DNA from: Chloroflexota bacterium
Lineage (GTDB): Bacteria > Chloroflexota > Anaerolineae > Anaerolineales > Villigracilaceae
DNA: 64,000 nt
Assembly: GCA_016234495.1 (NCBI GenBank)
Contig: JACRBI010000026.1
Location: forward strand, 1-64,000
Direction: 5' to 3'
The notes below the pieces were generated by a model that saw only the letters and a program-made list of their open reading frames with translations, did no database searches and was not told the DNA's origin. A program made the translations under genes and the position numbers. Below, piece by piece: positions 37,205-59,966 of the stretch (within the stretch, counting starts at the first letter, position 1; the number at the start of each line of letters is the position of its first letter).

Positions 37205-37225
37205 GAATTCTCGTTTGATGTAAGT

Positions 37226-37263
37226 AAAACAGGCTGGCGGAACTTCCGCCAGCCTGTTTTTTT
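37226..37263 (+). terminator. Terminator after the first subtilase
   Basis: Perfect 15-bp arms AAAACAGGCTGGCGG / CCGCCAGCCTGTTTT with a 5-nt loop and a T-run; usable in both directions for the converging lipoprotein gene. Confidence 0.9.
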
Positions 37264-37282
37264 ATTAATTGCTCGAAATTAT

Positions 37283-37771: not shown

Positions 37772-37908
37772 GGTTGTCATCTCCTGTCTGATTTTAATTC
37801 AATAGACGCCTTCCGGCCCGGAATGGTTCCTCCAAAATTCGTCAATGGAGGGGGGATAAGACGATTGGCTGCCGCACAAACTCAGGTATTAATTTGGAGT
37901 GGGTTTGC

Positions 37909-37937
37909 TTGAATTTTAAAATGAAACGTTGTAATAT
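37909..37937 (+). promoter_or_regulatory. Promoter upstream of the c-di-GMP riboswitch
   Basis: TTGAAT (37909-37914), 17-bp spacer, TAATAT (37932-37937), about 50 bp before the aptamer. The rest of 37772-37990 shows no gene. Confidence 0.55.
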
Positions 37938-37990
37938 AAATATAAGTTTTAGCGTTATTGAGCCTTTGCTTGAGAGGTAGGAAACCAATT

Positions 37991-38079
37991 ACACCTCGAA
38001 ACGGCAAACCCACCGTGAGGCGGGGGCGCAATGTCATGGATCTGCGAGTCGAATCAACGCAGATCGCCAGACTGCCGAA
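37991..38079 (+). promoter_or_regulatory. Cyclic di-GMP-I (GEMM) riboswitch aptamer
   Basis: Matches the GEMM-I layout. P1 5' strand CGGCA (38002-38006) runs into the conserved GGCAAACC; the P1b hairpin CCCACC-GTGA-GGCGGG has a GNRA loop; conserved GGGCGCAA follows; the P2 hairpin GATCTGCG...CGCAGATC (38039-38065); then GCCAGACTGCCGA, where TGCCG (38073-38077) closes P1. No database search was possible; the call rests on recognised consensus blocks in the right order and pairing. Confidence 0.85.
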
Positions 38080-38107
38080 AGTGATCTTGCTTCGGCAGTC
38101 TTTAATT
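38069..38107 (+). terminator. Riboswitch expression platform (terminator overlapping P1)
   Basis: Arms AGACTGCCGAA (38069-38079) and TTCGGCAGTCT (38091-38101), then TTTAATTT. The left arm reuses the 3' strand of aptamer P1, so the two folds exclude each other. Ligand-stabilised P1 should prevent termination, predicting an ON switch. Confidence 0.8.
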
Positions 38108-38215
38108 TAAACTGCCAGGTTAGGAGGTGATCCGCAAAAATCAAAAATGATCATTGAACATACCCGTTGTAAACCGTAATACCTATTTTTAGGAGATTGA
38201 AAAGGAGAACAGAAT

Positions 38216-44747: not shown

Positions 44748-44776
44748 TTGACGCATTATCTCCTTGCATGTATAAT
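44748..44776 (+). promoter_or_regulatory. Promoter of the DUF4388-GTPase cluster
   Basis: TTGACG (44748-44753), 17-bp spacer, TATAAT (44771-44776); RBS AGAGGA follows before ATG 44818. Confidence 0.78.
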
Positions 44777-44817: not shown

Positions 44818-45624
44818 ATGGCCCTGCGTGGAAATTTACGCGATATTACAATGACTCAACTGCTTAATCTCGTTCACCTTGCCAGTAAGACGGGCACTCT
44901 GGTTGTGGATGGGGTTTCGGAACAGGCTTATGTTTCATTTCGCGATGGAAAACTCGCCTACGCCCGCGTTGGCAAGGACGATGGAAGTCTGGCGTCGGTT
45001 TTGCACAAGGCGAACAAGATCAATGCCAATCAGTACCGTGCCATTGTTGAACGCGCAGGCCAGATGACCGACAAGGAGCTTGGCCTGCTTCTTATTAATG
45101 CGGGGTATGTGTCGCAGGAGGATATTCTCCTGAATTTACAGGGATATTTCACTGATGTGGTGCGCCGCCTGTTTTCATGGGTCGAGGGCATCTTCCGCTT
45201 TGAGAATGAGATGCTGCCCCCGGATGGCCGCATCAATGTGCGGCTTGATCTTGAGAACATCATCATGGAAGGCTCGCGGCAGCTGCGCGAACTGGAACAA
45301 TTGCAGGATGAAATTCCCAGCCTTGACATGGCGCTGGTCTTCACCAACCGTCCGCGCACCAACGTGAACCTGAGCGTGGATGAATGGAAGGTTGTGAAGT
45401 TTGTCGACCCGAAGAATACGATCCGCCAGATCGCGGGCGCCAATAAATTGAACGAGATCGAAATCCGCAGGATCGTATACGGTCTGTTGCAGGCCGGGCT
45501 GGTTGAGTTGGCGCGCCCCGCCGGTTCGATCGTTCAACCCAACCCGAAACAATTTCCCACCAAGAATAAAGAAGAACAAAAATCATTAATTAATAAATTG
45601 ATCGGCCGCATTCGTTCAATGTAA
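44818..45624 (+). CDS. DUF4388 (PatA-like) protein
   Basis: 268 aa. N-terminal DUF4388 domain (MALRGNLRDITMTQLLNLVH, LASKTGTLVVDG, then AYVSFRDGKLAYAR), a middle helical part (GLLLINAGYVSQEDILLNLQ) and a winged-helix-like C-terminus (TIRQIAGANKLNEIEIRRIV). Such proteins act in two-component and gliding/GTPase pathways, often next to MglA-like GTPases, as here (32-bp gap). First gene of the 15-kb signalling cluster. Confidence 0.82.
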   Translation: MALRGNLRDITMTQLLNLVHLASKTGTLVVDGVSEQAYVSFRDGKLAYARVGKDDGSLASVLHKANKINANQYRAIVERAGQMTDKELGLLLINAGYVSQEDILLNLQGYFTDVVRRLFSWVEGIFRFENEMLPPDGRINVRLDLENIIMEGSRQLRELEQLQDEIPSLDMALVFTNRPRTNVNLSVDEWKVVKFVDPKNTIRQIAGANKLNEIEIRRIVYGLLQAGLVELARPAGSIVQPNPKQFPTKNKEEQKSLINKLIGRIRSM

Positions 45625-45656
45625 TTTATTTATTTGGAAGCAGAAGGATAGGAATT

Positions 45657-46196
45657 ATGCAAACGGTCAAGATGGTAGTCACAGGTCCATTCAGCGCTGG
45701 CAAGACGCAGTTCATTCAGTCTGTCAGCGAGATCGATGTTGTCGCAACCGAGCGCAAGATCACATCTGAGGAGGAACGCTCTGTAAAATCCTCGACAACT
45801 GTGGCGATGGATTTTGGCCGCATCACTGTGGACGAAGACCTGGTCCTGTATCTGTTTGGGACTCCGGGCCAGAAGCGTTTTGACTTCATGTGGGAGATTC
45901 TCTCAGAGGGCATGTTGGGCTTTATCGTGATGGTGGACAGCACCCGCCCGGAAACTTTCCGCGAGGCGCGCTCAATTCTGGAAACGTTCCGCGCGTATGC
46001 CCCGACTCCCTTTGTGGTGGCTGCGAACAAACAGGACGCTGAGGATGCCTGGGAGCTTGAAGACATGCGCCATGCCCTGCGGCTGGATAAGAACACAAAG
46101 ATCCTGCCGTGCATCGCCATTGACCGCAATATGGTGAAGACGGTTTTACTTGAGCTGTTGTACAGCATTCTAAAAGAAATGGATGCCGGGAAATAA
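45657..46196 (+). CDS. MglA/Rup-like small Ras-superfamily GTPase
   Basis: 179 aa. P-loop GPFSAGKT (residues 10-17), switch-II-type FGTPGQKRFDFMW in place of DxxG as in bacterial Rup/MglA GTPases, and G4 NKQD. No membrane anchor. MglA homologues set polarity and motility; others regulate lipid or membrane processes. No Roadblock/MglB gene is adjacent; the DUF4388 protein upstream may be the partner (inference). Confidence 0.88.
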   Translation: MQTVKMVVTGPFSAGKTQFIQSVSEIDVVATERKITSEEERSVKSSTTVAMDFGRITVDEDLVLYLFGTPGQKRFDFMWEILSEGMLGFIVMVDSTRPETFREARSILETFRAYAPTPFVVAANKQDAEDAWELEDMRHALRLDKNTKILPCIAIDRNMVKTVLLELLYSILKEMDAGK

Positions 46197-46217
46197 GGGG
46201 CGGGATAACGATTTGCT

Positions 46218-47015
46218 GTGTCATCCATCACCACTGATCAGGGAATAGTTCATTACGAAGTATACGGGCGCGGGCGTCCGGTCATCCTTTTGCATGGATG
46301 GCTCGGCTCGTGGGGTTTGTGGCAGGAGACGATGGCGTATCTTGGCGCGTTTTACCGCACCTACGCTTTGGATTTTTGGGGATTTGGCGAATCAGGCAAG
46401 AAGCGCGAGACATACGCGGTTTCGGATTTCGTCAGGCTGGTAGATCAATTCATGGAGCAGTTGGGGATTCGCAACGCGCCGTTGGTGGGGCACAGCATGG
46501 GCGGCACGGTCAGCCTTTCGGTGGCGATTCAATATCCGCAGCGGGTCAGCAAGGTGGTGGTGGTTGGTTCGCCGATGGTCGGTTCTTCGCTTGCGCCGCT
46601 GCTTAAACTTGCCGGCAAGCGGCCGATCGCGTTCATGCTTTTTAACATGATGCCGGTTTTCCGCGCGGGGATGCGCCTGTATTCGCCGTTTATTTGCAAG
46701 GACCCGCGCTTTCCGGCCATGATGGACCGCGACCTTTCGCGCACGACCGTTGAGTCATTCCTGCGCTCCATCGCCTCGCTGCGCCGCACCGACCTGACCC
46801 CGGTGCTGGCGCAGGTCAAAGTCCCGGCGATGGGAATCTATGGCGACAGGGATGTGATCGTTCACCCGATGCAGTGGCACCCGATGCAGCAGGGCATCCC
46901 GCAGGCAGTCATTGAGCGCTTTCCAGCCGCCGGGCATTTCCCGATGCTGGAAGAGCCGACCGCCTTTACCCAAAAGTTAAAATCATTTCTCGATCAGGAA
47001 ACCCCAAACCCATGA
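46218..47015 (+). CDS. Alpha/beta hydrolase, active triad
   Basis: 265 aa, GTG start. Oxyanion block LLHGWLGSW, nucleophile S93 in GHSMGG, acid D in YGDRDVIVHP, His in AAGHFPML. Substrate unknown (esterase/lipase-like). It is co-transcribed, overlaps the next gene by 4 bp, and has a paralogue at the other end of the cluster (58966-59754) lacking the Ser. Confidence 0.9.
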   Translation: MSSITTDQGIVHYEVYGRGRPVILLHGWLGSWGLWQETMAYLGAFYRTYALDFWGFGESGKKRETYAVSDFVRLVDQFMEQLGIRNAPLVGHSMGGTVSLSVAIQYPQRVSKVVVVGSPMVGSSLAPLLKLAGKRPIAFMLFNMMPVFRAGMRLYSPFICKDPRFPAMMDRDLSRTTVESFLRSIASLRRTDLTPVLAQVKVPAMGIYGDRDVIVHPMQWHPMQQGIPQAVIERFPAAGHFPMLEEPTAFTQKLKSFLDQETPNP

Positions 47016-47635
47016 ACGAAGAATCTTTTTTCTATCCACAAAAAATGGGGCGGATCATTTTCCTTGGCATGGAGGAGGTGATGGGTTCGCATGGGGTGGA
47101 TGCTGTCCTTCATCTGGCTGCGCTGGAAAAATATATTCAAAATTATCCGCCGGATGGGAAGGAACGTGACTTTCCATTTGAAACGGTCAGTCTTTTACAA
47201 AGCATACTGGAGCAGGCGTACGGTCCACGCGGCGGGCGCGGACTGGCTTTGCGGGTCGGGCGCGCCTGTTTCAAGTATGGGCTCAGGGAATACGGCTCGA
47301 TGCTTGGGTTGACAGAAATGGCCTTCCGCTTGCTTTCGATGCCGACGAAATTAAGCGCCGGCGCCAAGTCGTTTGCGAATCTTTTTAACAAGCATACTGA
47401 TCAAAAAGTAAGGGTGGAGGAAAAAGACAACAAGATCTTCTGGCACATCGAGCGTTGTCCGCTGTGCTGGGGGCGGACAACTGAAGAGCCGGTCTGTCAC
47501 CTGGCTGTGGGCTTGATCCAGGAATCCATGTACTGGTTGAGCGGGGGCAAAGTGTTCGACGTCAAAGAGACTGCCTGCATTGCCAAAGGCGACGCGGCCT
47601 GCACGATCGAGATCGATACGCTTCCGTTTTCGTGA
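47012..47635 (+). CDS. V4R (4-vinyl reductase-like) domain protein
   Basis: 207 aa. C-terminal V4R domain with its cysteines: C149 and C152 (IERCPLCWG), C162 (VCHLAVGL), C189 (ETACIAKGD) and C197 (AACTIEI). V4R domains bind small hydrophobic molecules or metal and are found in BchJ and in sensors. The N-terminal 110 residues are helical. ATGA coupling with the hydrolase suggests the two act on the same compound. Confidence 0.82.
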   Translation: MNEESFFYPQKMGRIIFLGMEEVMGSHGVDAVLHLAALEKYIQNYPPDGKERDFPFETVSLLQSILEQAYGPRGGRGLALRVGRACFKYGLREYGSMLGLTEMAFRLLSMPTKLSAGAKSFANLFNKHTDQKVRVEEKDNKIFWHIERCPLCWGRTTEEPVCHLAVGLIQESMYWLSGGKVFDVKETACIAKGDAACTIEIDTLPFS

Positions 47636-47725
47636 TTTGAGCGGGACTTTTGCGCTCGGCATAAGTGAAAGCCCTGTTGAATTAACAGCTTTGTTGGACG
47701 GACGGCTTTATCGCATACTTTGATT

Positions 47726-47731
47726 TATAAT
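47726..47731 (+). promoter_or_regulatory. -10 box of leaderless beta-helix gene
   Basis: TATAAT with 7 bp to ATG 47739; no RBS, no -35 consensus. Suggests a second transcription start within the cluster. Confidence 0.55.
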
Positions 47732-47738
47732 TCCGCCC

Positions 47739-49016
47739 ATGCTTAAGATCATCCTGCATGCGCAGAACCAGATCATGCCGTTTTGCGAAGCGGCGCGCGA
47801 ACTGCGGATCCAAAACTCGCCGCTCTGGCTGCATCAGCGCAATTTGCTTGCGCCGTACGTCACCCGCGAGATGGAATTGAAACAGGGCGAGCGAATGCAG
47901 CCAGTGCGGGAGCCCAGCATCGTCTATCGCGACAATCTTTTTTTCGACGAATTTTATATCAAGGCTTTCATGGAAAAAGCCATGAAAGGCAATAAGCCTG
48001 TGCGCGCCGCGTTCAGTTCCAGCGATTCTGCATTCCGCGAACATGCCCTTCCGCTCTCAACATCCTACACCCCGGCCGGCAGTTTATATCTGGCGGACCT
48101 GTGGTATTACCCCAATGGTCCGACCACGGGCGTTGATCCGCTGGTGATTGACATGCAGTCGCGCGAGATCGGTTACTATCATGTGCCGACCTACATGGGC
48201 GACCAGAGCGGCGACCTTGTTTTTCAAGTGCCATTACGCGCCATGCTGGCCATCGATTCATGGGTGCATGTCTTTATCGCGGACATGGTCTTCGGTCAAT
48301 TTGCGCGCGGGGCGCGTTTTGAAAAAAGAGCAAACGAGGAGCTATCCTTTAAACTCAAAATACTCGGCAAGGCTATTTATGAGGGACGACAGGTATTGGA
48401 ATGTTCCGAAGCGGTGAAGGTCGGCAAAAATTGCGTGATTGACCCAAGCGCTGTCATCAAAGGCCCGGCGATCATCGGCGATAACGTCACGATCAATGCC
48501 GGCGCAGTAATAGACAACAGCATCATCGGCAACAATGTCAATATCTCACAGGATGCGCAGGTGATGCTTTCAGTGGTGGGCGACGGCGCCTTCCTGCCTT
48601 TCCGCTCATCGCTGTTCATGACCACGCTCATGGAAAACAGCATGTTGGCGCAAAACACCTGCCTGCAAATGTGCGTCATCGGAAGGAACACTTTTATTGG
48701 CGCAGGCTCCACATTTACAGATTACAACCTGATCCCCGCGCCGCTCCGCGCCCGAGATGGGAACGGCAAGTTGAGTTTATCCAACCGCCCGGTGCTGGGT
48801 GGCTGCGTGGGACATAACTGCCGCATCGGTTCGGGCATGATCGTCTACCCGGCGCGCACGATTGAATCGGACGTGGTGCTGGCGGCATCCAACACGCGGC
48901 GCGTGATTGACCGCGACGTCACATTTGATGATAGTGACCACCATCACCTAAAATTCTCCCATTTGCATCAGACACCCTATCACAAGGATTTGAAAGACAG
49001 GGCTGAGTCGTGGTAA
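47739..49016 (+). CDS. Left-handed beta-helix (hexapeptide) protein
   Basis: 425 aa. An N-terminal alpha/beta part (about 1-225) of unknown fold precedes hexapeptide repeats (about 235-390: CVIDPSAVIKGPAIIGDNVT, then INAGAVIDNSIIGNNVNISQ), as in GlmU-type acyl/nucleotidyl transferases. A canonical N-terminal pyrophosphorylase loop is not seen, so it is not simply GlmU. An acyl-transfer role would fit the adjacent acyl-reductase-like gene, whose ATG directly abuts this stop (TAAATG). Confidence 0.65.
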   Translation: MLKIILHAQNQIMPFCEAARELRIQNSPLWLHQRNLLAPYVTREMELKQGERMQPVREPSIVYRDNLFFDEFYIKAFMEKAMKGNKPVRAAFSSSDSAFREHALPLSTSYTPAGSLYLADLWYYPNGPTTGVDPLVIDMQSREIGYYHVPTYMGDQSGDLVFQVPLRAMLAIDSWVHVFIADMVFGQFARGARFEKRANEELSFKLKILGKAIYEGRQVLECSEAVKVGKNCVIDPSAVIKGPAIIGDNVTINAGAVIDNSIIGNNVNISQDAQVMLSVVGDGAFLPFRSSLFMTTLMENSMLAQNTCLQMCVIGRNTFIGAGSTFTDYNLIPAPLRARDGNGKLSLSNRPVLGGCVGHNCRIGSGMIVYPARTIESDVVLAASNTRRVIDRDVTFDDSDHHHLKFSHLHQTPYHKDLKDRAESW

Positions 49017-50129
49017 ATGGTTGTCGAGCCTGGTCGAGACATGGACAGCTTCGCCTTCATCATTCATCCGATTGATCCCAAGCGGGATGTCAGCCGCAAG
49101 TTTCCACTTTTAGGAAAAGTACTGAGCGAAAGACAAATAGATTTTTTCTCCACCTTCTTTCCGCCGGTTTATATTTCAGAGATCGAAGGCATTACGTCGC
49201 AAGCCACAGGCAAGGTCATCAAAGGCTGGTTCATCGCCTGCCCGTATACGCCGCGCCGCATGATGCAGTTGCCCGAGCGCACGGTCTATCGTAAAATAAT
49301 TCAAACCGGCCGCATGGCTGAAAAACTCGGCGCGAATATTCTCGGTCTCGGCGCATTCACATCTGTGATCGGTGACGCGGGCGTGACCATTGCGAACGCG
49401 CTGGATGTGCCGGTCACCACCGGCGACTCGTTCACGGTCGCCATGGCAGTGCAAGCCATCCGCGAAGCCGCGCATGTGATGGATATAAAATTGGAAGACG
49501 CGACGGTTGCCATCGTGGGCGCGACGGGTGCGATTGGGCGCGTCTGCTCTGAACTGTTGGCTGGTGAAGCGGCACAGACATTGCTCCTCGCCCGGGATGA
49601 GAAAAAACTCGCAGACCTGCGTGACAGGCTCCAGCTTAAGTCCCGAGGCGGGGTTTTCATCAGCACGAAGATGGATATTTTAAAGGATGCGCAATTGATA
49701 TTGACGGTCACAAGCTCGCTGCATGATGTCATCCACCCGGAAGTTTTGCAGGCCGGCAGTGTAATTTGCGATGTAGCCCGCCCCCGTGACGTTTCTGCAA
49801 TGGTGACGGCGATGAGAGATGATATATTAGTGATCGACGGCGGCATGGTGGACGTGCCAGGCTCTGTGAATTTCCACTTTAATTTTGGTTTTCCGGAAGG
49901 CAAGGCTTACGCCTGCATGGCTGAGACGATTGCGCTGGCGCTGGAAGGCCGCTTTGAAGATTACACCGTCGGCAGGGAAATCACGCTTGAACGTGTGAAT
50001 GAAATTAGCGCGATCGCCGCGAAGCATGGCTTTCGCATGAGCGGTTTCCGCTCTTTTGAACGTGAAGTAACAAACGCACAGATCGAAGCCGTTAAACATA
50101 ATGCCCGCAAAAAAGGGCAGCGCGGCTAG
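49017..50129 (+). CDS. Acyl-ACP/acyl-CoA reductase-like protein (cyanobacterial AAR type)
   Basis: 370 aa. Block by block it resembles cyanobacterial long-chain acyl-ACP reductase: SATGKVI-type (SQATGKVIKGWFIACPYTPR), LGAFTSVIGDAGVTIANAL, VTTGDSFTVAMAV, Rossmann motif VAIVGATGAIGRVCSELL, VIDGGMVDVPG, and YACMAETIALALEG holding C300 at the thioester-cysteine position. In cyanobacteria the enzyme makes fatty aldehyde from acyl-ACP with NADPH. No aldehyde-deformylating oxygenase is nearby, so alcohol or wax rather than alkane is more plausible (inference). ATG 49041 is an alternative start. Confidence 0.72.
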   Translation: MVVEPGRDMDSFAFIIHPIDPKRDVSRKFPLLGKVLSERQIDFFSTFFPPVYISEIEGITSQATGKVIKGWFIACPYTPRRMMQLPERTVYRKIIQTGRMAEKLGANILGLGAFTSVIGDAGVTIANALDVPVTTGDSFTVAMAVQAIREAAHVMDIKLEDATVAIVGATGAIGRVCSELLAGEAAQTLLLARDEKKLADLRDRLQLKSRGGVFISTKMDILKDAQLILTVTSSLHDVIHPEVLQAGSVICDVARPRDVSAMVTAMRDDILVIDGGMVDVPGSVNFHFNFGFPEGKAYACMAETIALALEGRFEDYTVGREITLERVNEISAIAAKHGFRMSGFRSFEREVTNAQIEAVKHNARKKGQRG

Positions 50130-50140
50130 AGGAGGCTCAC

Positions 50141-51040
50141 ATGGGAAATGCTCGCCTTTTAGTAGTGGAAGACGATATGGATATTGCCAACATGCTCAAG
50201 ATATATTTCACGGGCATGAAGTACGAAGTGGATGTGGCGCATCGCGGACGTGACGCTTTGGATAAGGTCAAGCACGCCCTGCCGCATTTGATCGTGCTCG
50301 ATATCATGCTGCCGGATATTGACGGCTACGAAGTCTGCCGTAATTTGCGGGTGAGCACGCGCACCAGCCATATCCCGGTCATATTCCTCACTCAAAAAGA
50401 TGAACGCAGCGACAAATTGCAGGGGCTGGAACTGGGCGCGGATGATTACATCACCAAGCCCTTTGACATCGAAGAATTGAAACTGCGGGTGCAGGGCGCC
50501 ATCCGCCGCTCGGAGCGCGAGAGTCTCACCGATCCGCGGTCCGGCCTGCCCGCCGGACGCTTGATCGAGGAGCAGCTGCGCCGCATCATCCGCGAAAAAG
50601 ACTGGGCGCTGCTCGACGTGCGCATGAATCATTTTGAGCCGTTCAAGGATGTGTATGGATTTGTGGCCGGCGACGATGCGGTGCGTTTCGCTTCGATGGT
50701 GATCGGCGAAGTGGTGGATGAACTTGGGACGACGGGCGATTTTATTGGTCACGCCGGCGGCGATAACTTCATCATCATCACCACCAATGAAGCCGCGCCG
50801 AATATTCGCCGCAGATTAAAGGAACGTTTTGCGGAGGAAATCCAGGCTCACTATAATTTTATAGACCGCCAGCAGGGATTCATTCAAGCGCCCACGGCTG
50901 ACGGCGGGTTTGAAAAAGTCCCGTTCATGACGTTTTCAGCGGGCCTGATCTCGCCGACCTCACATTCCTTCGCAGACATCCGCGAGATCACGGAACTTGC
51001 GGCGGATGCGCGGCGTCAGGATGCGGCGGCTGTTTCATAA
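50141..51040 (+). CDS. Response regulator with degenerate GGDEF domain
   Basis: 299 aa. OmpR-like receiver (D11, D12, phospho-acceptor D54 in IVLDIMLPD, K in ITKPFD) followed by a GGDEF-like domain whose signature reads GGDNF, with other parts poorly conserved. It is probably not an efficient diguanylate cyclase and may instead bind nucleotide or signal by protein contact. RBS GAGGAGG-like (TAGAGGAGGCTC). Sits 14 bp before the giant kinase gene, so it is a likely partner. Confidence 0.85.
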   Translation: MGNARLLVVEDDMDIANMLKIYFTGMKYEVDVAHRGRDALDKVKHALPHLIVLDIMLPDIDGYEVCRNLRVSTRTSHIPVIFLTQKDERSDKLQGLELGADDYITKPFDIEELKLRVQGAIRRSERESLTDPRSGLPAGRLIEEQLRRIIREKDWALLDVRMNHFEPFKDVYGFVAGDDAVRFASMVIGEVVDELGTTGDFIGHAGGDNFIIITTNEAAPNIRRRLKERFAEEIQAHYNFIDRQQGFIQAPTADGGFEKVPFMTFSAGLISPTSHSFADIREITELAADARRQDAAAVS

Positions 51041-51054
51041 GGTAATTCTTCCTC

Positions 51055-54000
51055 ATGTTCCCCGGGTTCGGCATTAGCCTGTTCATTGCTGGGCTGGTAT
51101 TTGTTGTACTGGTCTGGGTCGTCTTGCGCGTTTCCACGCGTTCACAGGCGGCGGCTCAGGCTGAGTCAACCCCGTTTGCTTTCCCCGAAACCGCACAATC
51201 CAATCAGGCAGTGATGATCCTCCAGCCCGGTGGGCGGGTGGAATATATCAGCACGGGCGCGCGTTCTTATTTCAACCTGCGCGAGAATGAACCCTATGAT
51301 CTGGAACGCCTTGCGCGGCGCGTGCGCCCAACCAGCGATTTCCTTGACCTGTGCGCAGCGCCCGGCATGAACCGTGTTTCCATTGACGGCAAACTGGTGG
51401 ATGTCGCCTCCTATGAAGTGCCCGGGGTTTACCCGATGATGCTGATCTCCTTCCACGGGAAGGAACTGCTCCCCGCACTGGAGCAAGGCAGCGGCGCTTC
51501 GGCTGAAATCCTGCGCGTGGTGACAGAGTTCAGTCAGGGCATTGCCGCGAGTCTCGATCTTGAAACCACCATCCGCGCAGTGTTGGATAATGTCAGCCGC
51601 CTGATGCCATCAGACATGCTTGAGTTGAAACTATGGAATAACGAACCCAGGCTTCTCGTCCAGTACCGCTACGAACAACCCGAGCAGGGACCCAGCCAGG
51701 TGACAGCCGCTTCACTTTCGCAATTTGGCAGCCTGACAAATCAATTGATTGCCGGGCGTGAGCCGTTGCTGCTTTCAAATGCGCGCGCCCAGCCTGAACT
51801 CGCAATGAATGGAGAACTTCTTCCCGTCCAATCGTATTTGGGGATTCCGCTCATTGCAGGCGGCGAATTAGTCGGAACACTGGAAGCAGGCCAGATCGGC
51901 GGCGGGGCTTTCGGTCAGCACGACCTTGAGCTGTTGTCTTTAGTCTCTGCCCAGGCGGCGGTTGCGATCCGCAATGCGAAGCTGTATGAAGAGGAACAAA
52001 AACGCGGCGCGGAACTTGCTGGCCTGGCAAACTTGAATCAGTCGCTTGGCTCTGTGCATGGCGCGCAGGATATTTTCTCACGGCTGGTGGAGAGCGTGTC
52101 GCCTTTGTTCTCTGCCGAACTGATCGGCTTCCTGCTGTACGATGAAGAAAAATATACGCTCGAAGCCAAAGTCCCATTCCGCGGGTTGCCGGCCCACATT
52201 GTCGAGATCTACCGCGCCAACGTCCCGGCCTACAGCCTCGCTGAACAGGTCATCTCCAGCCAGCAGTCCATCGTCACACTGAACGCTGCCGGAGATGCGA
52301 ACTGGCGGACGCTTGGCTTGTCTGATATTGCAACTGCCGCCAGCCTGCGCGATGTTGCGCTCATCCCGTTGAGTTCATCGGGGCGTATGCTTGGCTACCT
52401 TCAAGTGGGGCATCACACCAGCGGCACAGCCTCTTTCAGCGTTGAAGAAATTCGTTTAATGAACATCGTGGCGAATCAAGCCGCGGCGATCATTGAAAAT
52501 GTTTTGCTCGTACAACAGGCGCGCACGCGCGCCCAGCGCTCAGATGCCCTGCGGCGGATTGCCGGCCTTTCAGGCTCTTCGGCTTCGCTGGAAGATATCC
52601 TTAAATACTCGGTGCAGGAATTGGCGAATCTTTTCCTCGCTGATGCAGGCGCGATCTTTCTGATGGATGAATCGCGCGGAGAGCTGCGCCTGCGCCGCGA
52701 ATCCACATTTGGGATTTCAGAAGAGATCAGCAGCGCGTTCATTCAGATATTTGTGGATGACCCGAATTATATGTTTACAGTTTCGGGCAGCCAGAAGCCG
52801 TTCCTTTCCGGAAACCTCAGCGCCGACAGAAGAATCCTGCCCGCCTATCGCCCACTGGCTGAAACACTTCGAGTTGAATCTGCGATGGTGGTGCCATTGG
52901 TGGTGCGCGAGCACAGCATCGGCGAGTTGATGCTGGGAAGTTTCAAGCCCGACCATTTCAATTCCTTTGACGTTCAAATCGCGTTCACCGCGGCGGGCTA
53001 TCTGGCAACAGCCGTGGAATCTACCAGCCTGCTCGCCCAGACCGATGACTCTCTGCGGCGGCGGGTGGAGCAACTCTCAGCCATCACGCGCGTCAGCCGC
53101 GAGTTGGGCGCGTCGCTGGACCTGGAGCGTTTGCTCCAGATCATCCACGATGAAGGCTTGCTTGCCATCCAGGCTGACTGTTCATCCATTATTTTGTTCC
53201 AGCAGAATAGCGATCCGACTGATCCGCTCAGCGAGTTGTTTTTTGGCTGCGAAGACGGGCGTGATATATCCGCCCTGGAGAAGACCGTACTCAAAAATGG
53301 CGAGCCGCGCATCATCAACGATTTTTCAGCGGAGGATGCCCTGCCGCCGCATGATGGCGTGCGCTCGGCGGTGATCGCGCCGATCACGCATCAGGCGCGG
53401 ACGATCGGCCTGCTCAACCTGCATTCCAACCAGCCCTCTTTCTTCACTGACGACCTGGTCGAGTTGATCCAAACTTTGGCAGTACAGGCCGGTATCGCCC
53501 TCAGCAACGCCCAGCGTTATCAAACTGAAAAACAGCGCGGCGAAATTTTGCGCCGCCGTTCAGATACGCTCGTGCGCCTTACGGATGTCAGTTACAGCGT
53601 GGGCAGCGACCAGCCGTTGGATCAGGCTTTGCATGTCATTGCGCGCGGCATTCATGATTCGACTCCCTTCAACGTGGTGTTAATCAGCATCACAGAAACA
53701 GACCTCGGTCTGCTGCGCCGCATTACCGCGGTCGGCATTCCGCAGGAAACGCTGAATGAATTATTCTCCCGCAAACAACCGCTTGCCAGCGTTTTGCAAA
53801 TCTTGAAGCCGGAGTTTAAGATCAGCCGCTCCTACTTCATCCCAGCCGATAAATCTCCCGTCGTCCCTGCGGATGTCCACATGGTTACCCTCGATGTTTC
53901 CATGTCCCCGGTGAAAATTCCCGACTCATGGGACCCGGATGATATCCTGCTTGTCCCCCTGGAAGATGAAGACGGACAGATCATTGGTCTGATCAGTCTG

Positions 54001-57000
54001 GATAACCCTGAAAATGGCCTGCGCCCCGACAAGGCGGCCATCGAATCGGTGGAAGTGTTTGCTGCTCAAGCCGCATTGTTGATCCGCAACACGTTCCGTC
54101 AAAATGAATTGCACGGGCGCATTGATTCACTGTCTGCCGGTTTGCAGCGCCAGCAGAAGCTGCTTGATATTACCCAAAACGACCTCCCGGTGCTCCTGCA
54201 CAAAGACCTGGAGCAGACCATTTCTCTGCACAACCTTGACCGGCGCGCCCAGCGTGTGCGAGCCGGCCTCGCCATTACAGAATCCGTCAGCCGCCAGTTG
54301 GATGCTTCCTCCGCGTTGTCGGCGCTTGGCCGCGAAACACTGACTCAATTGGGCATGTCGGTTGCGCTTGTGGCAGAGAACACTGCCGACGGTCCGCGCC
54401 TGATGCACATTCTCGGCAGCCTGCCGCGCTCAACCAATGTCGAAGCCTTGTTCGGTCAGCGCAACCCATTGCGCGCCTGCCTGCAAAATGGCGCTCCAAT
54501 TCTAATCGCCAGCCTCGAAGAGGACGATGAATGGCGCGACGCCTCCCTGCTGACAATCCTGCGCGCCAAAGGCGCGATCTGCCTGCCCGTATCCATTGAC
54601 AACAAACCGGTGGCCGCCATGCTCGCGGTCAGCCCGGAGCCGATGACTGCCTTCACCGAAGAAGACTATAAAGTCTATCTGCAAATCTCACAGCAGACAT
54701 CTCTGATTCTGCAAAATATTTCCCTGCTAAATCAGACCCGCCGCCGTCTCGACGAGGTGAATCTGCTGCTCGACTTTAGCCGCCAGCTTTCGGGTATGGA
54801 TCCGGATGCGGTCATCAAGTCGCTGCTGCACAGTTCCCGGCGCGTCCTCCCGCACGCCCACGCCGGAACCGTGCTGATCTGGAATCAGAAAACTGAAACA
54901 CTCAATCCGCGCGTGGTTTCAGGTTATGCCGACAACGACAGCATGATGCACATTAAATACCGCTGGGGCGAGGCTCTGCCCGGCACCACCTTCGTGAACA
55001 AATCCGCCCGCCGGGTGGATGAGATCAACTTTGCGCGTGACTACACCTTGAGCGCGGAAAACCTCGCGCTGTATCGGCAGGCTACCGGCGGACGCTTGCC
55101 GGTTTCAAGTTTGCTTGTGCCCATCGTAGCCAATGAGCAGGCTCTCGGCTTGCTTGTTTTGGATAACTTCAACACCACCTCCGCCTTCCGCCTTGAAGAT
55201 GAAGCGCTCCTGCTTTCCCTTTCACAGCAGATCGCGCTCTCGCTGGATAACCTGCGGCTCATGCAAGCCACGCAGGAACGCGCCGGACAATTGCAAGCCT
55301 TGAATGACGCCGCCGCCTCGCTCACAGCCAGTTTGCGCAGCGACCAATTGGTCAGCACGCTGCTCGACCAGTTGCAGCCGGTTGTGCCGTACGATACAGC
55401 CACGCTCTGGCTGCGTGAAAGAGACCGCCTGACGGTTGCCTCTGCACGCGGCTTCTCCGATTCTGAAGAGCGGCTTGGCTTGTCGGTCTCGGTTTCAGAT
55501 AGCGCGCTCTTCAAAGAAATGGCAAGGACCGGTCAGCCGATCTTTGTCAAAGATGTGCGCGAAGATTCACGCTTCATGCCGGTCGAAGCCCCGCGCCTTT
55601 CATGGCTCGGAATTCCATTGATCTCCAAAGGCGAATTGATCGGCGCGCTGGCGGTTGAAAAATGGCAGGCTCACTATTATTCGCACGAACAAATTCAAGT
55701 TGCGCTGACCTTCGCCAGCCAGTCTGCTGTATCGCTGGACAATGCCCGCCTGTACGAAGACAGCGTCAGCCGCGCCACTGAACTCGACCAACGCTCGCAG
55801 CGTCTCACCACCATCAACCGCTTCACATCCGCTTTGACTGGCTTGCTGGATGCAGACCGGATCTTGAGTTTGACTGCCGATGAATTGCTGAACGGGCTGG
55901 ATGTAAAACGCGTCTCCATCGTAACCTTTGAGCGGGGTCAGGCGTTCTGGAAGATCACCGCCCCTCGAATGAAGAGCAAATTCCCGCGCCCATTGCCCGA
56001 TGCGCCCATCTTCAGCCGCCTGCGCGAATCGCTTGGCGTTTTCAATACCGAAGACGTCCACAACGAACCAGACCTTGCTCCGCTTTCGGAATTGCTTGGC
56101 GAGAACACTTCAGCCCTGTTGATTCTGCCGCTCACCAGCGGACAAGTTCTGACCGGCCTTGTCTTTGCCCAATCGATGGGCGGAGCGCGGTTCGGTTCGA
56201 ACGAACTTGAAATTGCGCGCACCATTATTAATCAGGCCACCATCACGCTTGAAAACGCACGCCTGTATCAATCCACCGTGCGCACAGCGGAGCGATTCTC
56301 CATCCTCAACGAGACCAGTTCACAGGTCAGCGCCAGCCTCGCCCCGGAAGAGATCTATGCCGCAGTCCACAAAGCGGCCGGTCGTCTCATGCCGATGGAG
56401 TCTTTTGTCATCACACTCTTCGATCAGGAGAAAAACGAGATCGAGCCGGTGTATTTATTTGACCTCGGTCAGCGCATTCAAAGTCCGCGTGTTCCATTTG
56501 GAAAAGGCATCAGCAGCCAGGTCATTGCGAACGGCAAGCCCATCCTGATTACATCCCTTGAACAGGCCAATAATTTGGATTCAGTGCAGACCGGCGAAGG
56601 CGAAGATACCCAGTCCATCGTGGCTGTGCCGATGATCCTTGGCGGCAAGGCGCTGGGCATGCTCTCTGTCCAAAGTTATCAGCCGGATGTGTACACCGAA
56701 GAGGATATGCAGATTCTTGGCACGCTCGCCAATCAGGCCATCGTCGCCATTCAAAATGGACGGCTCTTTGCCGAGACGCAGAACCTCGCCGCCAACCTTG
56801 AAAAACGCGTCATCGAGCGTACTTCGCAATTACAGCGCGAACAACAAAATACCGAAACCCTGCTGCACATTCTGACGGAGGTTTCCTCCAGCCTCGACCT
56901 CGACCGCGCGCTTAATCGTACATTGTCATTGCTGAATGATGCCATCGGCGCGGAACAGGGTACCATCCTGCTCTTGAACGTGGATGACGGTCTTTTGCAT

Positions 57001-58464
57001 TACCGCGCCGGGTATGGATATCTTTCAGAAAAGTCCAGCATCAATAGCCGCGAGACCAGCTTGAAGGTTGGAGAAGGACTCGCGGGTTGGGTTGTCCAGC
57101 GCCGCGAAGCTGTTCTAATCCCCGACCTGCATCAGGACCCGCGCTGGATTCAGAACGCCGCAAATCAAGATCAGCGCAGCGCGATCGCGGTGCCCATGCT
57201 GGTCGGTGAGGATGCGATCGGGGCGCTCATGGTCTTCCAACGTGCCGAGAGCTTCTTTAGTTCTGAAATGCTGGTGCTTGTCAAAGCCATTGCGGCGCAG
57301 GTGGCGGTGGCGATCAACAACGCGCACCTGTATGAACTGATTCGCGATCAGGCTGAACGCCTGGGCGTGATGCTGCGCAAAGAGCAGGAGGATGCCAGCC
57401 GCTCACAGGCCATCCTCGAAGCGGTGGCAGACGGCGTGCTGGTCACCGGAGCCGATAACCGCATCACCTTTGTCAATTCCTCGGTGCAGCGCATCATCGC
57501 TGTTAACGAAACCCGCCTGCTCGGTACTCCGCTGGATGCGCTTGGCGGCATGTTCGGTAAAGCTGCAAGCACATGGATGCAAACCATCCGCCACTGGTCG
57601 AAGCACCCGTCTTCCTACCGCAGCGGCGACACGTATGCCGAACAACTTGAATTGGAAAATGGCCATGTCGCGCTCGTCCACCTTGCGCCGGTGATCTTTC
57701 AAAATGATTTTCTCGGAACCGTATCCATCTTCCGCGACATCACGCATGAAGTGGAGGTTGACCGCTTGAAATCGGAATTCGTTGCAACCGTCAGCCACGA
57801 ATTGCGCACGCCCATGACGGCCATCAAAGGGTATGTGGATATTCTGACGATGGGCGCGGCCGGCGCGTTGAACGAAAACCAGATGCACTTCCTTGATGTT
57901 GTCCGCAACAATATTGACCGCCTCAACACCCTCGTCAGCGACCTGCTCGACACCTCCCGCATGGAAGCCGGTCGCATCACACTCAACCTGCAAACTATCG
58001 ACTTGCGCGAGATCGCAGAAGATGTTGTTGCCGATGTGCTGCGCCGTTCGCAAAATGAACACAAGCCAATGGCGCTCTCGCTGGATGTGCCGTCCCGGAA
58101 ATTACCGCCCGTCCTTGGCGACAGCGAGCGCGTGCGGCAGATCGTGGGCAACCTTGTCGATAACGCCTTTAATTACACGCCGAACAATGGAACCATCCGC
58201 GTCAACATTCATCAGGAGAATGGCGACTTGCAGGTGGATGTTCAGGACAACGGCGTCGGTATTGCGCCGGAAGATCAGTCGCGCATCTTTGAACGTTTTT
58301 TCCGCGGCGAACATTCGCTCGTTTTGGCAACGCCCGGCACCGGCCTTGGACTTTCGATCGTTCGCCAGCTGGTCGAAATGCATAACGGCCGAATCTGGAT
58401 GACAAGCACCGGCGTGGCGGGCGAAGGCAGCACCTTCTCCTTCACCCTGCCCATCTCAAAATAA
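51055..58464 (+). CDS. Giant multi-GAF sensor histidine kinase (2469 aa)
   Basis: One N-terminal transmembrane helix (about 5-24), a PAS-like stretch to about 145, then about eleven GAF-type modules (starting near 150, 319, 495, 671, 836, 1070, 1230, 1410, 1582, 1746, 1929), each ending in an IxNAxLY-type helix and joined by coiled coils. A PAS domain (about 2117-2230), HisKA with H2248 (SHELRTPMTAIKGY) and a complete HATPase (NLVDNAFNYTPNNG, DNGVGIAPED, GTGLGLSIVRQL) follow. The catalytic core looks active. No GAF carries an obvious bilin Cys or NIT motif. It probably phosphorylates the flanking REC proteins. Confidence 0.93.
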   Translation: MFPGFGISLFIAGLVFVVLVWVVLRVSTRSQAAAQAESTPFAFPETAQSNQAVMILQPGGRVEYISTGARSYFNLRENEPYDLERLARRVRPTSDFLDLCAAPGMNRVSIDGKLVDVASYEVPGVYPMMLISFHGKELLPALEQGSGASAEILRVVTEFSQGIAASLDLETTIRAVLDNVSRLMPSDMLELKLWNNEPRLLVQYRYEQPEQGPSQVTAASLSQFGSLTNQLIAGREPLLLSNARAQPELAMNGELLPVQSYLGIPLIAGGELVGTLEAGQIGGGAFGQHDLELLSLVSAQAAVAIRNAKLYEEEQKRGAELAGLANLNQSLGSVHGAQDIFSRLVESVSPLFSAELIGFLLYDEEKYTLEAKVPFRGLPAHIVEIYRANVPAYSLAEQVISSQQSIVTLNAAGDANWRTLGLSDIATAASLRDVALIPLSSSGRMLGYLQVGHHTSGTASFSVEEIRLMNIVANQAAAIIENVLLVQQARTRAQRSDALRRIAGLSGSSASLEDILKYSVQELANLFLADAGAIFLMDESRGELRLRRESTFGISEEISSAFIQIFVDDPNYMFTVSGSQKPFLSGNLSADRRILPAYRPLAETLRVESAMVVPLVVREHSIGELMLGSFKPDHFNSFDVQIAFTAAGYLATAVESTSLLAQTDDSLRRRVEQLSAITRVSRELGASLDLERLLQIIHDEGLLAIQADCSSIILFQQNSDPTDPLSELFFGCEDGRDISALEKTVLKNGEPRIINDFSAEDALPPHDGVRSAVIAPITHQARTIGLLNLHSNQPSFFTDDLVELIQTLAVQAGIALSNAQRYQTEKQRGEILRRRSDTLVRLTDVSYSVGSDQPLDQALHVIARGIHDSTPFNVVLISITETDLGLLRRITAVGIPQETLNELFSRKQPLASVLQILKPEFKISRSYFIPADKSPVVPADVHMVTLDVSMSPVKIPDSWDPDDILLVPLEDEDGQIIGLISLDNPENGLRPDKAAIESVEVFAAQAALLIRNTFRQNELHGRIDSLSAGLQRQQKLLDITQNDLPVLLHKDLEQTISLHNLDRRAQRVRAGLAITESVSRQLDASSALSALGRETLTQLGMSVALVAENTADGPRLMHILGSLPRSTNVEALFGQRNPLRACLQNGAPILIASLEEDDEWRDASLLTILRAKGAICLPVSIDNKPVAAMLAVSPEPMTAFTEEDYKVYLQISQQTSLILQNISLLNQTRRRLDEVNLLLDFSRQLSGMDPDAVIKSLLHSSRRVLPHAHAGTVLIWNQKTETLNPRVVSGYADNDSMMHIKYRWGEALPGTTFVNKSARRVDEINFARDYTLSAENLALYRQATGGRLPVSSLLVPIVANEQALGLLVLDNFNTTSAFRLEDEALLLSLSQQIALSLDNLRLMQATQERAGQLQALNDAAASLTASLRSDQLVSTLLDQLQPVVPYDTATLWLRERDRLTVASARGFSDSEERLGLSVSVSDSALFKEMARTGQPIFVKDVREDSRFMPVEAPRLSWLGIPLISKGELIGALAVEKWQAHYYSHEQIQVALTFASQSAVSLDNARLYEDSVSRATELDQRSQRLTTINRFTSALTGLLDADRILSLTADELLNGLDVKRVSIVTFERGQAFWKITAPRMKSKFPRPLPDAPIFSRLRESLGVFNTEDVHNEPDLAPLSELLGENTSALLILPLTSGQVLTGLVFAQSMGGARFGSNELEIARTIINQATITLENARLYQSTVRTAERFSILNETSSQVSASLAPEEIYAAVHKAAGRLMPMESFVITLFDQEKNEIEPVYLFDLGQRIQSPRVPFGKGISSQVIANGKPILITSLEQANNLDSVQTGEGEDTQSIVAVPMILGGKALGMLSVQSYQPDVYTEEDMQILGTLANQAIVAIQNGRLFAETQNLAANLEKRVIERTSQLQREQQNTETLLHILTEVSSSLDLDRALNRTLSLLNDAIGAEQGTILLLNVDDGLLHYRAGYGYLSEKSSINSRETSLKVGEGLAGWVVQRREAVLIPDLHQDPRWIQNAANQDQRSAIAVPMLVGEDAIGALMVFQRAESFFSSEMLVLVKAIAAQVAVAINNAHLYELIRDQAERLGVMLRKEQEDASRSQAILEAVADGVLVTGADNRITFVNSSVQRIIAVNETRLLGTPLDALGGMFGKAASTWMQTIRHWSKHPSSYRSGDTYAEQLELENGHVALVHLAPVIFQNDFLGTVSIFRDITHEVEVDRLKSEFVATVSHELRTPMTAIKGYVDILTMGAAGALNENQMHFLDVVRNNIDRLNTLVSDLLDTSRMEAGRITLNLQTIDLREIAEDVVADVLRRSQNEHKPMALSLDVPSRKLPPVLGDSERVRQIVGNLVDNAFNYTPNNGTIRVNIHQENGDLQVDVQDNGVGIAPEDQSRIFERFFRGEHSLVLATPGTGLGLSIVRQLVEMHNGRIWMTSTGVAGEGSTFSFTLPISK

Positions 58465-58584
58465 CACACCTTATCCAGTAAGGGCGACCCTTCATGGTCA
58501 ATTGGATATCTTCTTCCCGCTGGGCGGGCCGCCTCTACGGTATGTGTAAATAAAAAAATATCATCAGTAAACAATGGAGTTTGC

Positions 58585-58959
58585 ATGGCAAGAATTTTGA
58601 TCGCAGAAGACGAACCGGACATTCGCGAACTTGTGGCTTTCACCCTGCGCTTTGCAGGGCATGAAGTCACCGCCACCCCCAATGGAGAAGAGGCGGTCAA
58701 GCAGGCAACGCAGATCATTCCAGACATCATCCTCATGGATGTGCGCATGCCGCGCATGACCGGCTATGAAGCCTGCCGCCTGATGAAAGCCGACCCGGCC
58801 TTGAAGGACATTCCCGTGGTCTTCCTCTCTGCCAAAGGCCAGGATTCTGAAATTCAAACAGGGCTTGACGCCGGCGCGGAAGAATACCTGCTCAAACCCT
58901 TTGCCCCCGACCAACTCACCGAACGAGTAAAAGCCATCCTCGCAAAATACGGAAAATAA
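58585..58959 (+). CDS. Single-domain response regulator (CheY-like)
   Basis: 124 aa, receiver only: E8-D9-E10, phospho-acceptor D52 (IILMDVRMP), S82, K104 (LLKPF). Likely relays phosphate from the upstream kinase by protein interaction. The 120-bp gap before it contains no clear promoter. 6 bp before the pseudo-hydrolase gene. Confidence 0.93.
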   Translation: MARILIAEDEPDIRELVAFTLRFAGHEVTATPNGEEAVKQATQIIPDIILMDVRMPRMTGYEACRLMKADPALKDIPVVFLSAKGQDSEIQTGLDAGAEEYLLKPFAPDQLTERVKAILAKYGK

Positions 58960-58965
58960 CGGTTC

Positions 58966-59754
58966 ATGAGCGCCATCATTCTTGACGGTTCGATCGTGCA
59001 TTACGAAGCCCTGGGACGCGGCCGCCCCATTGTCTTTTTGCACGGCTGGGTCGGCTCGTGGCGTTACTGGATCAACGCCATGCAGATCGCCTCCACATCC
59101 TACCGCGCCTACGCCATAGACCTCTTCGGCTTTGGCGATACCACGCGCGACCCCAGTCACTATCCCATTGAACGCCAGGCAGAATTGATTGACCGCTTTC
59201 TCGAAGAAATGGGCATCGGCAAGGTCGCGCTGGTCGGGCACGGCCTCGGCGCATTGGTTGGATTTTCATTCATCAAGCAATGGCCGAAAAGCGTTGACCG
59301 AATCATGGCGATCAACTGTCCGCTGGATTCCGACTCGGTCAACTCGCGCATGAGGACTGCCGCCATAACTGAACTGGTCGAATGGCTGGCTGTTCGCACT
59401 CCAGAGGCAGCATCCGCCCTTTCAGACGCATCCAAAACCGACCCGCAAGCTGTCTCTGCTTCGTTGACAGGATTCCTGTCGAATGGCTATTTCGCCGACA
59501 TCCGCAACCTCGGCATTCCCGGGTTATTCGTCTCCGGGCCGAATGATCCGGCCATCGCCATGCCAACCCAGGAAAAAATCGACGCCCTGCCAAACCACAT
59601 GCACCACATCAGCCTCGAAAGCACCGGGCACTTCCCGATGATCGAAACCCCAAACCAGTTCAACCGCCTGATGACCGACTTCCTAGCGCTGGACTCGGGC
59701 GTGAGTCCGCGGGAATTGCAGATGAAAGAGGAATGGAAACGCAGAGTCCGCTGA
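58966..59754 (+). CDS. Alpha/beta hydrolase paralogue lacking the nucleophile Ser
   Basis: 262 aa, clearly paralogous to 46218-47015 (same VHYExxGRGRP and LHGWxGSW blocks and near-equal length). The nucleophile elbow is GHGLGA: residue 93, Ser in the paralogue, is Gly (codon GGC). Other triad positions persist (NDP acid region, TGHFPM His). Probably non-hydrolytic: a ligand-binding or regulatory pseudoenzyme, possibly sensing the substrate of its active sister. Closes the cluster before a terminator. Confidence 0.88.
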   Translation: MSAIILDGSIVHYEALGRGRPIVFLHGWVGSWRYWINAMQIASTSYRAYAIDLFGFGDTTRDPSHYPIERQAELIDRFLEEMGIGKVALVGHGLGALVGFSFIKQWPKSVDRIMAINCPLDSDSVNSRMRTAAITELVEWLAVRTPEAASALSDASKTDPQAVSASLTGFLSNGYFADIRNLGIPGLFVSGPNDPAIAMPTQEKIDALPNHMHHISLESTGHFPMIETPNQFNRLMTDFLALDSGVSPRELQMKEEWKRRVR

Positions 59755-59756
59755 CC

Positions 59757-59788
59757 ATACCGTGAGACCTTCTCGCGGTATTTTTTTA
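59757..59788 (+). terminator. Terminator of the signalling cluster
   Basis: ATACCGTGAG / CTCGCGGTAT (one G-T pair), loop ACCTT, then a seven-T run, right after the hydrolase stop. Confidence 0.88.
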
Positions 59789-59789
59789 C

Positions 59790-59818
59790 TTGACATCCCC
59801 AACCCAGGGTCATATACT
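59790..59818 (+). promoter_or_regulatory. Promoter of the thiamine operon
   Basis: TTGACA (59790-59795), 17-bp spacer, TATACT (59813-59818), immediately upstream of the TPP aptamer. Confidence 0.85.
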
Positions 59819-59833
59819 CGCAGCACACAATTG

Positions 59834-59918
59834 AACGGGGAGCCTGCATTGACAGGCTGAGAGGAGCATCCTTGCTCGACCCGCATTACCTGATCTGGTT
59901 AATACCAGCGGAGGGACT
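59834..59918 (+). promoter_or_regulatory. TPP riboswitch (THI element)
   Basis: Consensus blocks in order: CGGGGAGCC, GGCTGAGAGGA, GACCCGCATTACCTGATCTG and GGTTAATACCAGCGGAGGGA. The pyrimidine- and pyrophosphate-sensing arms are both present. Expected to repress the downstream thiamine genes when TPP is abundant. Confidence 0.95.
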
Positions 59919-59932
59919 CTTGATTCAAGTAC

Positions 59933-59966
59933 AGCCATCCTCCGCCCGAGGATGGCTTTCGTTTAA
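59933..59966 (+). terminator. Expression-platform terminator of the TPP riboswitch
   Basis: Perfect arms AGCCATCCTC / GAGGATGGCT with loop CGCCC, then TTCGTTT. It lies between the aptamer and thiN, so control is by transcription termination. Confidence 0.85.

Follow-up and report, generated by a model that had tools for sequence, protein, structure and literature searches.

What ten consecutive open reading frames (ORFs) on the plus strand at 44818–59754 of the window (the whole 64,000-nucleotide stretch analysed here, positions 1 to 64,000 of contig JACRBI010000026.1 of a Chloroflexota bacterium, assembly GCA_016234495.1) might do together is the question this locus raises. In order, genes 1–10 (products p1–p10) encode a DUF4388/PATAN protein, an MglA-type small GTPase, an α/β hydrolase, a V4R-domain protein, a hexapeptide-helix protein, an acyl reductase-like enzyme, a REC/GGDEF protein, a giant histidine kinase, a stand-alone receiver and a second protein of α/β-hydrolase fold. 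The ORF list and searches of Pfam and NCBIfam returned the ten genes and named domains just as the initial annotation had listed them. Our answer, to which we assign a probability of a little under 60%, is that the block is a single transcription unit for small-GTPase signalling controlled by a membrane histidine kinase, in which V4R serves as the subunit for a hydrophobic ligand and an acyl-thioester reductase forms a metabolic arm; the acyl loop by itself we hold with much lower confidence than this overall frame.

Judged from gene order across genomes, the ten genes are one conserved unit. With p5 as the query we obtained matches in 67 of the 199 genomes in our sample of the class, the window's own genome included, and retrieved 60 neighbourhoods from the 67 (G007, G028, G076, G078, G083 and G129 were left out). 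The 60 loci came from 22 families, or 21 without L095, a locus with a 26–27% paralogue, and the block recurred in these 21 families while the flanks did not; genes scattered among the relatives, the outcome that would have told against the initial annotation, were not what we found, the block being kept well beyond the genus. All ten genes stood in strict order on one strand in 20 of the 60 loci (in one of these, L093, p5 is split over two frames), and the other loci were interrupted by contig ends or were without some members. Flanks were compared in the 33 loci where they were wide, the other 27 being too short or, for L095, excluded. Among the 25 wide-flank loci outside the window's family, genes 1, 2 and 3 were present in 23 each, V4R in 16, the acyl reductase in 19, REC/GGDEF in 20 and the kinase in 18 (p5, the anchor, in 25), whereas the flanking HAD gene was found in none and the flanking thiamin pyrophosphokinase in one; within the family these two flanking genes were found in 3 and 5 of 8 loci, respectively. 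The flanking GNAT gene, 338-residue gene, solute-binding protein and permease were likewise absent from the 25, which is a weak control because these genes sit at or past the edge of the retrieved stretches. PATAN lay upstream of the GTPase in 49 of 54 loci; in the remaining five the GTPase starts so close to an end of the retrieved sequence (1–123 bp) that there is no room for it, and in the loci compared a PATAN gene was thus present wherever the contig extends far enough. Kinase–receiver fusions were the sole kind of fusion among operon members in the loci compared. A scan of a named collection gave the same arrangement: of the best 80 of 473 confirmed loci, 43 contain genes 1–9 or more, with gene 10 lying mostly beyond the retrieved flank, and these best 80 come from Chloroflexi/Chloroflexota or Anaerolineae-type organisms.

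Beyond the class the block is smaller. In a sample of the phylum, p5 was found in 44 of 251 genomes. Of these, 24 lie outside the class, and every one of the 24 also had a GTPase match (E ≤ 1e-30, a threshold that includes paralogues, e.g., in G045), and two further genomes had the GTPase only. From the 24 we retrieved 17 p5 loci. The run p5–REC/GGDEF–giant kinase was present in 16 of these, with a hydrolase next in 15 of the 16 (the stretch of L188 ends before any hydrolase position downstream of the kinase), and V4R adjoined p5 on its upstream side in 6 of the 17. One locus, L184, has DUF4388, GTPase and V4R upstream of p5 instead, and in four outside-class genomes examined (G305, G297, G349 and G334) the GTPase is located elsewhere with a DUF4388 gene upstream of it. 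Genes 1–4 and genes 5–10 could accordingly be taken for two independent modules that are adjacent without a common function, the halves being separate in L042, L090, L092 and most outside-class loci. This account is weakened because the halves co-occur even when unlinked, as in the 24 of 24 genomes just mentioned; V4R, from the first half, adjoins p5 in the six loci above, and G412 has PATAN–GTPase–V4R followed by REC/GGDEF and kinase without p5. We consider two separate modules very improbable. Two neighbours recurred in outside-class loci: in three of them, directly 5' of the V4R/p5 block, a UvrA-like ABC ATPase (L191 3037-5880 +, L197 14635-17493 -, L193 2243-5188 +) and, in two genomes, a DUF1385 gene (PF07136) followed by the DUF4388–GTPase pair (L224 8411-9400 -, L226 4600-5535 +).

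Another 28 of the class genomes have the GTPase and lack p5, and the 20 that we retrieved point to a still smaller core. All 20 have PATAN upstream of the GTPase, and 16 have V4R downstream, the exceptions being L242, L246, L247 and L251 (in L247 the GTPase is followed by a V4R with an in-frame stop); in G033 the trio stands bare, and G412 is the genome already described. By these gene neighbourhoods, PATAN, MglA-type GTPase and V4R are the set that persists alone, and lipid is not a constant theme. Directly after the GTPase, 5 of the 20 carry a gene of 123–126 residues; the three tested were all Roadblock/LC7 (PF03259, E below 1e-19), and the remaining two also match Roadblock. Roadblock, of MglB type, adjoined the GTPase in at least 10 genomes, which belong to four families (f6, f14, f40 and f44), ten GTPase rows having been compared and all ten being adjacent; in one of these families the Roadblock gene lies inside the large operon, as seen in G013 and G049. 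Roadblock was also directly upstream of V4R in at least 42 genomes, from about 100 Roadblock rows and 46 V4R rows among the matches listed. The window's genome has such a locus on contig C26 (L267 4416-7086 -), with Roadblock, V4R and REC/GGDEF; its V4R shares 47% identity with p4, and its REC/GGDEF shares 43% with p7 across 241 residues. Upstream of this locus the contig breaks off, and downstream a family 2 glycosyltransferase gene follows. The second Roadblock copy of this genome adjoins CTP synthase, and two genomes from the window's order likewise have a second Roadblock gene directly 5' of CTP synthase (L271 5676-8184 +, L273 5637-7781 +). Across the 199 class genomes, GTPase was found in 93, Roadblock in 91, V4R in 98 and p5 in 67, and the GTPase shared a genome with Roadblock in 88 cases, with V4R in 89 and with p5 in 65; the 28 families with Roadblock, counted by eye, are all among the 30 with GTPase.

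The GTPase p2 (45657..46196, 179 residues), of Ras/Arf type by Pfam, has GxxxxGKT, GTPGQ and NKQD invariant in all aligned rows having letters there: G68-T69-P70-G71-Q72 and T47/T48 in 54 of 55 rows, with one gap each, and NKQD (G4) in 55 of 55. The accessible part of PMC4316618 gives GTPGQ in G3 and a threonine replacing the G2 arginine as the rule for MglA groups 2–5, and [NT]KxD in G4, which NKQD satisfies, for groups 1, 4 and 5. GTPGQ and the threonine at the G2 position thus fit groups 2–5, and by its predicted sequence p2 is an MglA-type GTPase with intact motifs of these groups. Such motifs and a putative Roadblock partner would also suit an MglA–MglB-like polarity or motility module for positioning type IV pili, in which PATAN would touch the motor of the pilus. 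There is a precedent in Synechocystis, where, in the excerpts available, PATAN regulators interact with the PilB motor (PMC10519157; given as a hypothesis in PMC7690835). PilT (TIGR01420, E ≤ 1e-80), however, was found in just 14 of the 199 class genomes, 13 of them above the family cut-off; the 93 GTPase genomes account for 5 of the 14 (Fisher p 0.42), and the window's genome has none. The rarity of PilT counts against twitching and not against other polarity functions. With PilT this rare, we rejected type IV pilus control as a general output, and the polarity module as a whole appears very unlikely.

Upstream of the GTPase, p1 (44818..45624, 268 residues) matches DUF4388/PATAN (PF14332, E 3.6e-25) and ends in a predicted C-terminal winged helix. 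In its model (predicted local distance difference test [pLDDT] score 83.9) the nearest structural match of this winged helix is chain C of GATOR1 entries (Z 10.3 over 70 residues, root-mean-square deviation [rmsd] 2.4; MarR-type proteins score about 6), a chain that is probably NPRL3. Winged helices are common. A Foldseek search with p1 gave no match with E ≤ 0.001, and the list of structure neighbours covers the winged helix alone; because of this a relation between PATAN and the Roadblock/longin fold is neither shown nor excluded. The V4R protein p4 (47012..47635) scored 43.3 bits against PF02830 (cut-off 31), in the TRAPP Bet3 superfamily, and its five conserved cysteines are kept in 39-41 of 41 rows. 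V4R has been argued, in the portion seen of Podar et al. (PMC2253512), to be homologous to TRAPP Bet3 and its likely ancestor, and the accessible text of PMC10933270 describes ligand cavities and zinc sites in Asgard V4R/TRAPPC3 proteins. Against PDB sequences the V4R profile matched the repeat protein THR5 (E 0.0039) and MJ1460 (2osd, E 0.019), of which only MJ1460 looks real.

Genes 5 and 6 bear on the metabolic arm. The initial annotation had called p5 (47739..49016) a beta-helix protein, a label that needs correcting: Pfam detects a left-handed hexapeptide helix, and the model (pLDDT 79.6) and structure comparison make the whole a nucleotidyltransferase-fold domain followed by that helix, with matches to ST0452 (Z 17.1, rmsd 7.9, 308 aligned) and, for the N-terminal domain, to CobY 3rsb (Z 12.5, rmsd 3.0, 146 aligned). 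GxGTR is the nucleotide loop of sugar-1-phosphate nucleotidyltransferases. We read p5 as a pseudo-nucleotidyltransferase because none of its 81 orthologues has a GxG[TS]R loop; a looser glycine-rich pattern occurs in one, L056, whose frame has an N-terminal extension, and KPL is present in 58 of the 81. The protein is probably catalytically dead, and substrate binding may persist. The adjoining p6 (49017..50129) was rightly described as acyl-ACP-reductase-like: Cys300 aligns to residue 294 of 6jzq, which we take to be the catalytic residue, and is invariant in 51 of 51 rows, as are the three glycines of the Rossmann domain that Pfam detects. It scored 133.4 bits against TIGR04058 (cyanobacterial acyl-ACP reductase, AAR; equivalog cut-off 449.7, not reached) and 224.8 bits against PigE (cut-off 850), aligning to positions 2–359 of 837 only and without the aminotransferase domain. 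We conclude that p6 is, as predicted, an acyl-thioester-reductase-like enzyme of cyanobacterial AAR or PigE N-terminal type that keeps its catalytic cysteine.

With such an enzyme present, the locus could be a regulated acyl or fatty-aldehyde pathway in which the AAR, the hydrolases and the hexapeptide protein yield a fatty aldehyde, an alcohol or a product of wax type, with a purely regulatory role for the GTPase and the kinase. The conserved cysteine and Rossmann motif of p6 agree with this, as does the distribution of the short AAR form (a match at E ≤ 1e-93), which occurs in 59 genomes and is confined to those with p5 (59 of 59); in addition, an AAR homologue in G208 adjoins a PlsC-type acyltransferase, and an AAR-containing protein in G305 adjoins an α/β hydrolase. 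Opposed to this, the trio of signalling genes is kept where the acyl reductase is missing, p10 and probably p5 appear catalytically dead, and in none of the 17 outside-class loci does the block contain an AAR. A pure lipid pathway is weakened because the reductase is absent in whole groups where the signalling core stays, and we think it unlikely. The sensing and remodelling of acyl compounds under a phosphorelay that the initial annotation proposed thus survives in part: the phosphorelay components are intact, lipid is an inconstant theme, and the acyl role is still conjectural. We also observed proteins of 680–760 residues with an AAR-like C-terminal half in genomes outside the class and in some inside it (L225 6033-8087 +, L227 5794-7869 +, L229 6636-8693 -, L230 5005-7290 +); in L225 the fusion gene is followed by an α/β hydrolase gene. 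The N-terminal ~300 residues had no Pfam match in the two proteins tested, and the N-terminal halves of five compared with the window proteins gave nothing above chance.

The remaining products divide into those that keep their key residues and those that look like retired enzymes. Both members of the reported hydrolase pair have the α/β-hydrolase fold, and p3 alone (46218..47015) has an intact Ser-Asp-His triad (S93 in 54 of 55 rows with one gap, D212 and H240 in 55 of 55). In p10 (58966..59754) the nucleophile serine is replaced by glycine, the elbow reading LVGHGLG, and the position holds G in 19, S in 7, D in 3 and A in 3 of 32 rows; glycine was also found at the elbow in 14 of 14 readable downstream hydrolases outside the class, two more being unreadable by the pattern. 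p10 is thus an apparent pseudo-hydrolase. In p7 (50141..51040) the REC residues Asp54 and Lys106 are kept in 53 of 53 rows, and the second domain is a degenerate GGDEF with GGDNF in place of GG(D/E)EF, glutamate occurring at the fourth position in 1 of 53. Together, p5, p10 and the GGDEF part of p7 all look retired. The kinase p8 (51055..58464, 2469 residues) has one N-terminal hydrophobic helix, about 10 GAF stretches, PAS, HisKA and HATPase, and the receiver p9 (58585..58959; PF00072, E 1.1e-29) keeps Asp52 in 32 of 32 rows; the kinase domains and both receivers keep their key residues.

Several observations weigh against our reading. Besides its absence from the outside-class blocks, the acyl reductase is lacking from the block in several loci within the class, including 2 of 3 from the window's own order (L201 and L202); the short form is missing in 8 of the 67 p5 genomes (one of them, G058, has just a 27% p5 paralogue), and in some genomes the AAR is on a different contig from p5 (e.g., G075, G055, G146 and G028). 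V4R is not in the operon of several families (f11, f41, f45 and f20), and 4 of the 93 GTPase genomes have no V4R match. By Pfam the window's operon has no Roadblock gene, the two of this genome lying elsewhere, and in G013 the gene is interrupted by an in-frame stop. Gene 9 occurred in only 12 of the 25 wide-flank loci, as did gene 10, outside the window's family, the 7 of 32 p10 orthologues with serine are at odds with a dead enzyme, and the Fisher values for co-occurrence ignore phylogeny.

The intergenic gaps within the unit are, in order, 32, 21, -4, 103, 0, 11, 14, 120 and 6 bp; the description of the genes as mostly 0-32 bp apart or overlapping thus applies to 7 of 9 gaps and fails for those of 103 and 120 bp. 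A putative sigma-70-like promoter (TTGACG-17-TATAAT, 44748..44776 +), which agrees with the consensus at 11 of 12 positions, stops 41 bp short of gene 1, and a terminator-like hairpin of 11 pairs followed by a T-run (59757..59781 +) starts just past the end of gene 10 at 59754. The next unit downstream has its own promoter-like site (59790-59818) and thiamin pyrophosphate (TPP) riboswitch (RF00059, 70 bits, 59826-59933 +), then thiamin pyrophosphokinase and a solute-binding/permease pair. The promoter-like site, the hairpin and the separate next unit suggest that the borders of the transcription unit are those of the ten-gene block. The riboswitch was the sole match of the Rfam scan, which found no RNA element within the operon. 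Upstream lie HAD-hydrolase and GNAT genes and, farther off, two large subtilisin-type proteases in tandem (34259-40777 +). Anti-phage defence was also considered: PADLOC run on 8 of the 10 proteins (not p8 and p9) gave just weak matches, in p7, of 25 and 23 bits.

A GTPase signalling system of this composition might work as follows. What stays constant is a GTPase with its PATAN neighbour, together with Roadblock and V4R proteins, and regulation would come from the kinase and two receivers. The membrane-anchored multi-GAF kinase p8 would integrate small-molecule signals and phosphorylate p9 and p7, and the phosphorylated receivers would act on the GTPase cycle via the PATAN adaptor. Roadblock, supplied in trans from the C26 locus, may be the GTPase-activating protein or guanine nucleotide exchange factor of p2, and V4R, being Bet3-like, could bind a hydrophobic acyl-type ligand and set membrane location or exchange. 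With the AAR tied to p5 and V4R offering a hydrophobic-ligand input, the AAR is the natural candidate for a source or sink of that ligand; p6 would make or drain it through acyl-thioester reduction, and p3 would hydrolyse a related ester. The probable pseudoenzymes p5 and p10 and the GGDEF relic might serve as non-catalytic sensors or scaffolds. As to what the GTPase controls downstream, our best guess is that it governs some spatial process within the cell, much as MglA does. That the ligand is acyl, which proteins are phosphorylated and that Roadblock binds the GTPase we infer from sequence and gene association.

Studied bacterial small-GTPase systems are mainly those of Myxococcus, Thermus and Streptomyces. 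The locus shares the GTPGQ and NKxD motifs and, putatively, a Roadblock partner with MglA/MglB groups 2–5 (PMC4316618, which, in its accessible part, also covers known bacterial small-GTPase cases and occasionally reports PATAN neighbours for groups 1 and 5); it differs in that the recurrent neighbours here are V4R, a giant GAF kinase, an acyl reductase and pseudoenzymes, and Roadblock is usually encoded elsewhere. With the actinobacterial conservon (CvnA–D) it has in common a histidine kinase, Roadblock and an MglA-type GTPase as one system. The four-gene set HK–Roadblock–CvnC–GTPase is not what the block contains, Pfam finding no Roadblock and no match to DUF742, presumably the CvnC family, in the ten genes; furthermore, the kinase is multi-GAF, and receivers, V4R, PATAN, p5 and AAR are added. 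Regulation of the GTPase by a kinase and two receivers, as proposed here, would also have parallels in conservons and in systems of the Frz–RomR–MglA kind. p6 resembles cyanobacterial acyl-ACP reductase (6jzq) and the PigE N-terminal domain (4ppm) in sequence, cysteine position and Rossmann motif, but falls far under both family cut-offs and is without the PigE aminotransferase domain. p5, like ST0452, GMPPA–GMPPB and eIF2B subunits, has a nucleotidyltransferase domain and then a hexapeptide helix, but is without the GxGTR loop in every orthologue examined and has an N-terminal domain of only ~200 residues. In the literature searched, subscription journals being largely outside its scope, we found no description of the ten-gene combination; in the part seen of the appendix to PMC8756737, a run of DUF4388, GTPase, hydrolase and 'glmU' genes is given for Anaerolinea thermolimosa. 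The parts are known, and the combination is bacterial small-GTPase signalling in a new arrangement, one that spans more than one class of a large and poorly understood phylum.

The comparison of widest reach is with eukaryotic TRAPP and Asgard TRAPPC3, where a small GTPase likewise goes with Roadblock/longin-fold and Bet3/V4R-fold proteins. Here the system is bacterial, V4R is not Bet3 proper, no longin protein was identified, and the relationship is one of gene association. The same gene sets nevertheless bring together a member of the Bet3 superfamily, Roadblock and a Ras-like GTPase, whereas in Asgard strain MK-D1, according to the accessible portion of PMC10933270, small-GTPase genes are generally not in operons with Roadblock, longin or TRAPPC3 genes. 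Since the operons here name partners, the suggestion that V4R is ancestral to Bet3, as made in the portion available of PMC2253512, becomes testable with defined proteins. It is a speculative and rather unlikely extension that a V4R–Roadblock complex might bind an acyl ligand supplied by the reductase and, under histidine-kinase control, exchange nucleotide on the Ras-like GTPase at the membrane as a bacterial TRAPP-like regulator. If that were true, a pairing central to eukaryotic vesicle tethering would already be present as a bacterial operon, and the system would be much more than a variant of bacterial small-GTPase signalling.

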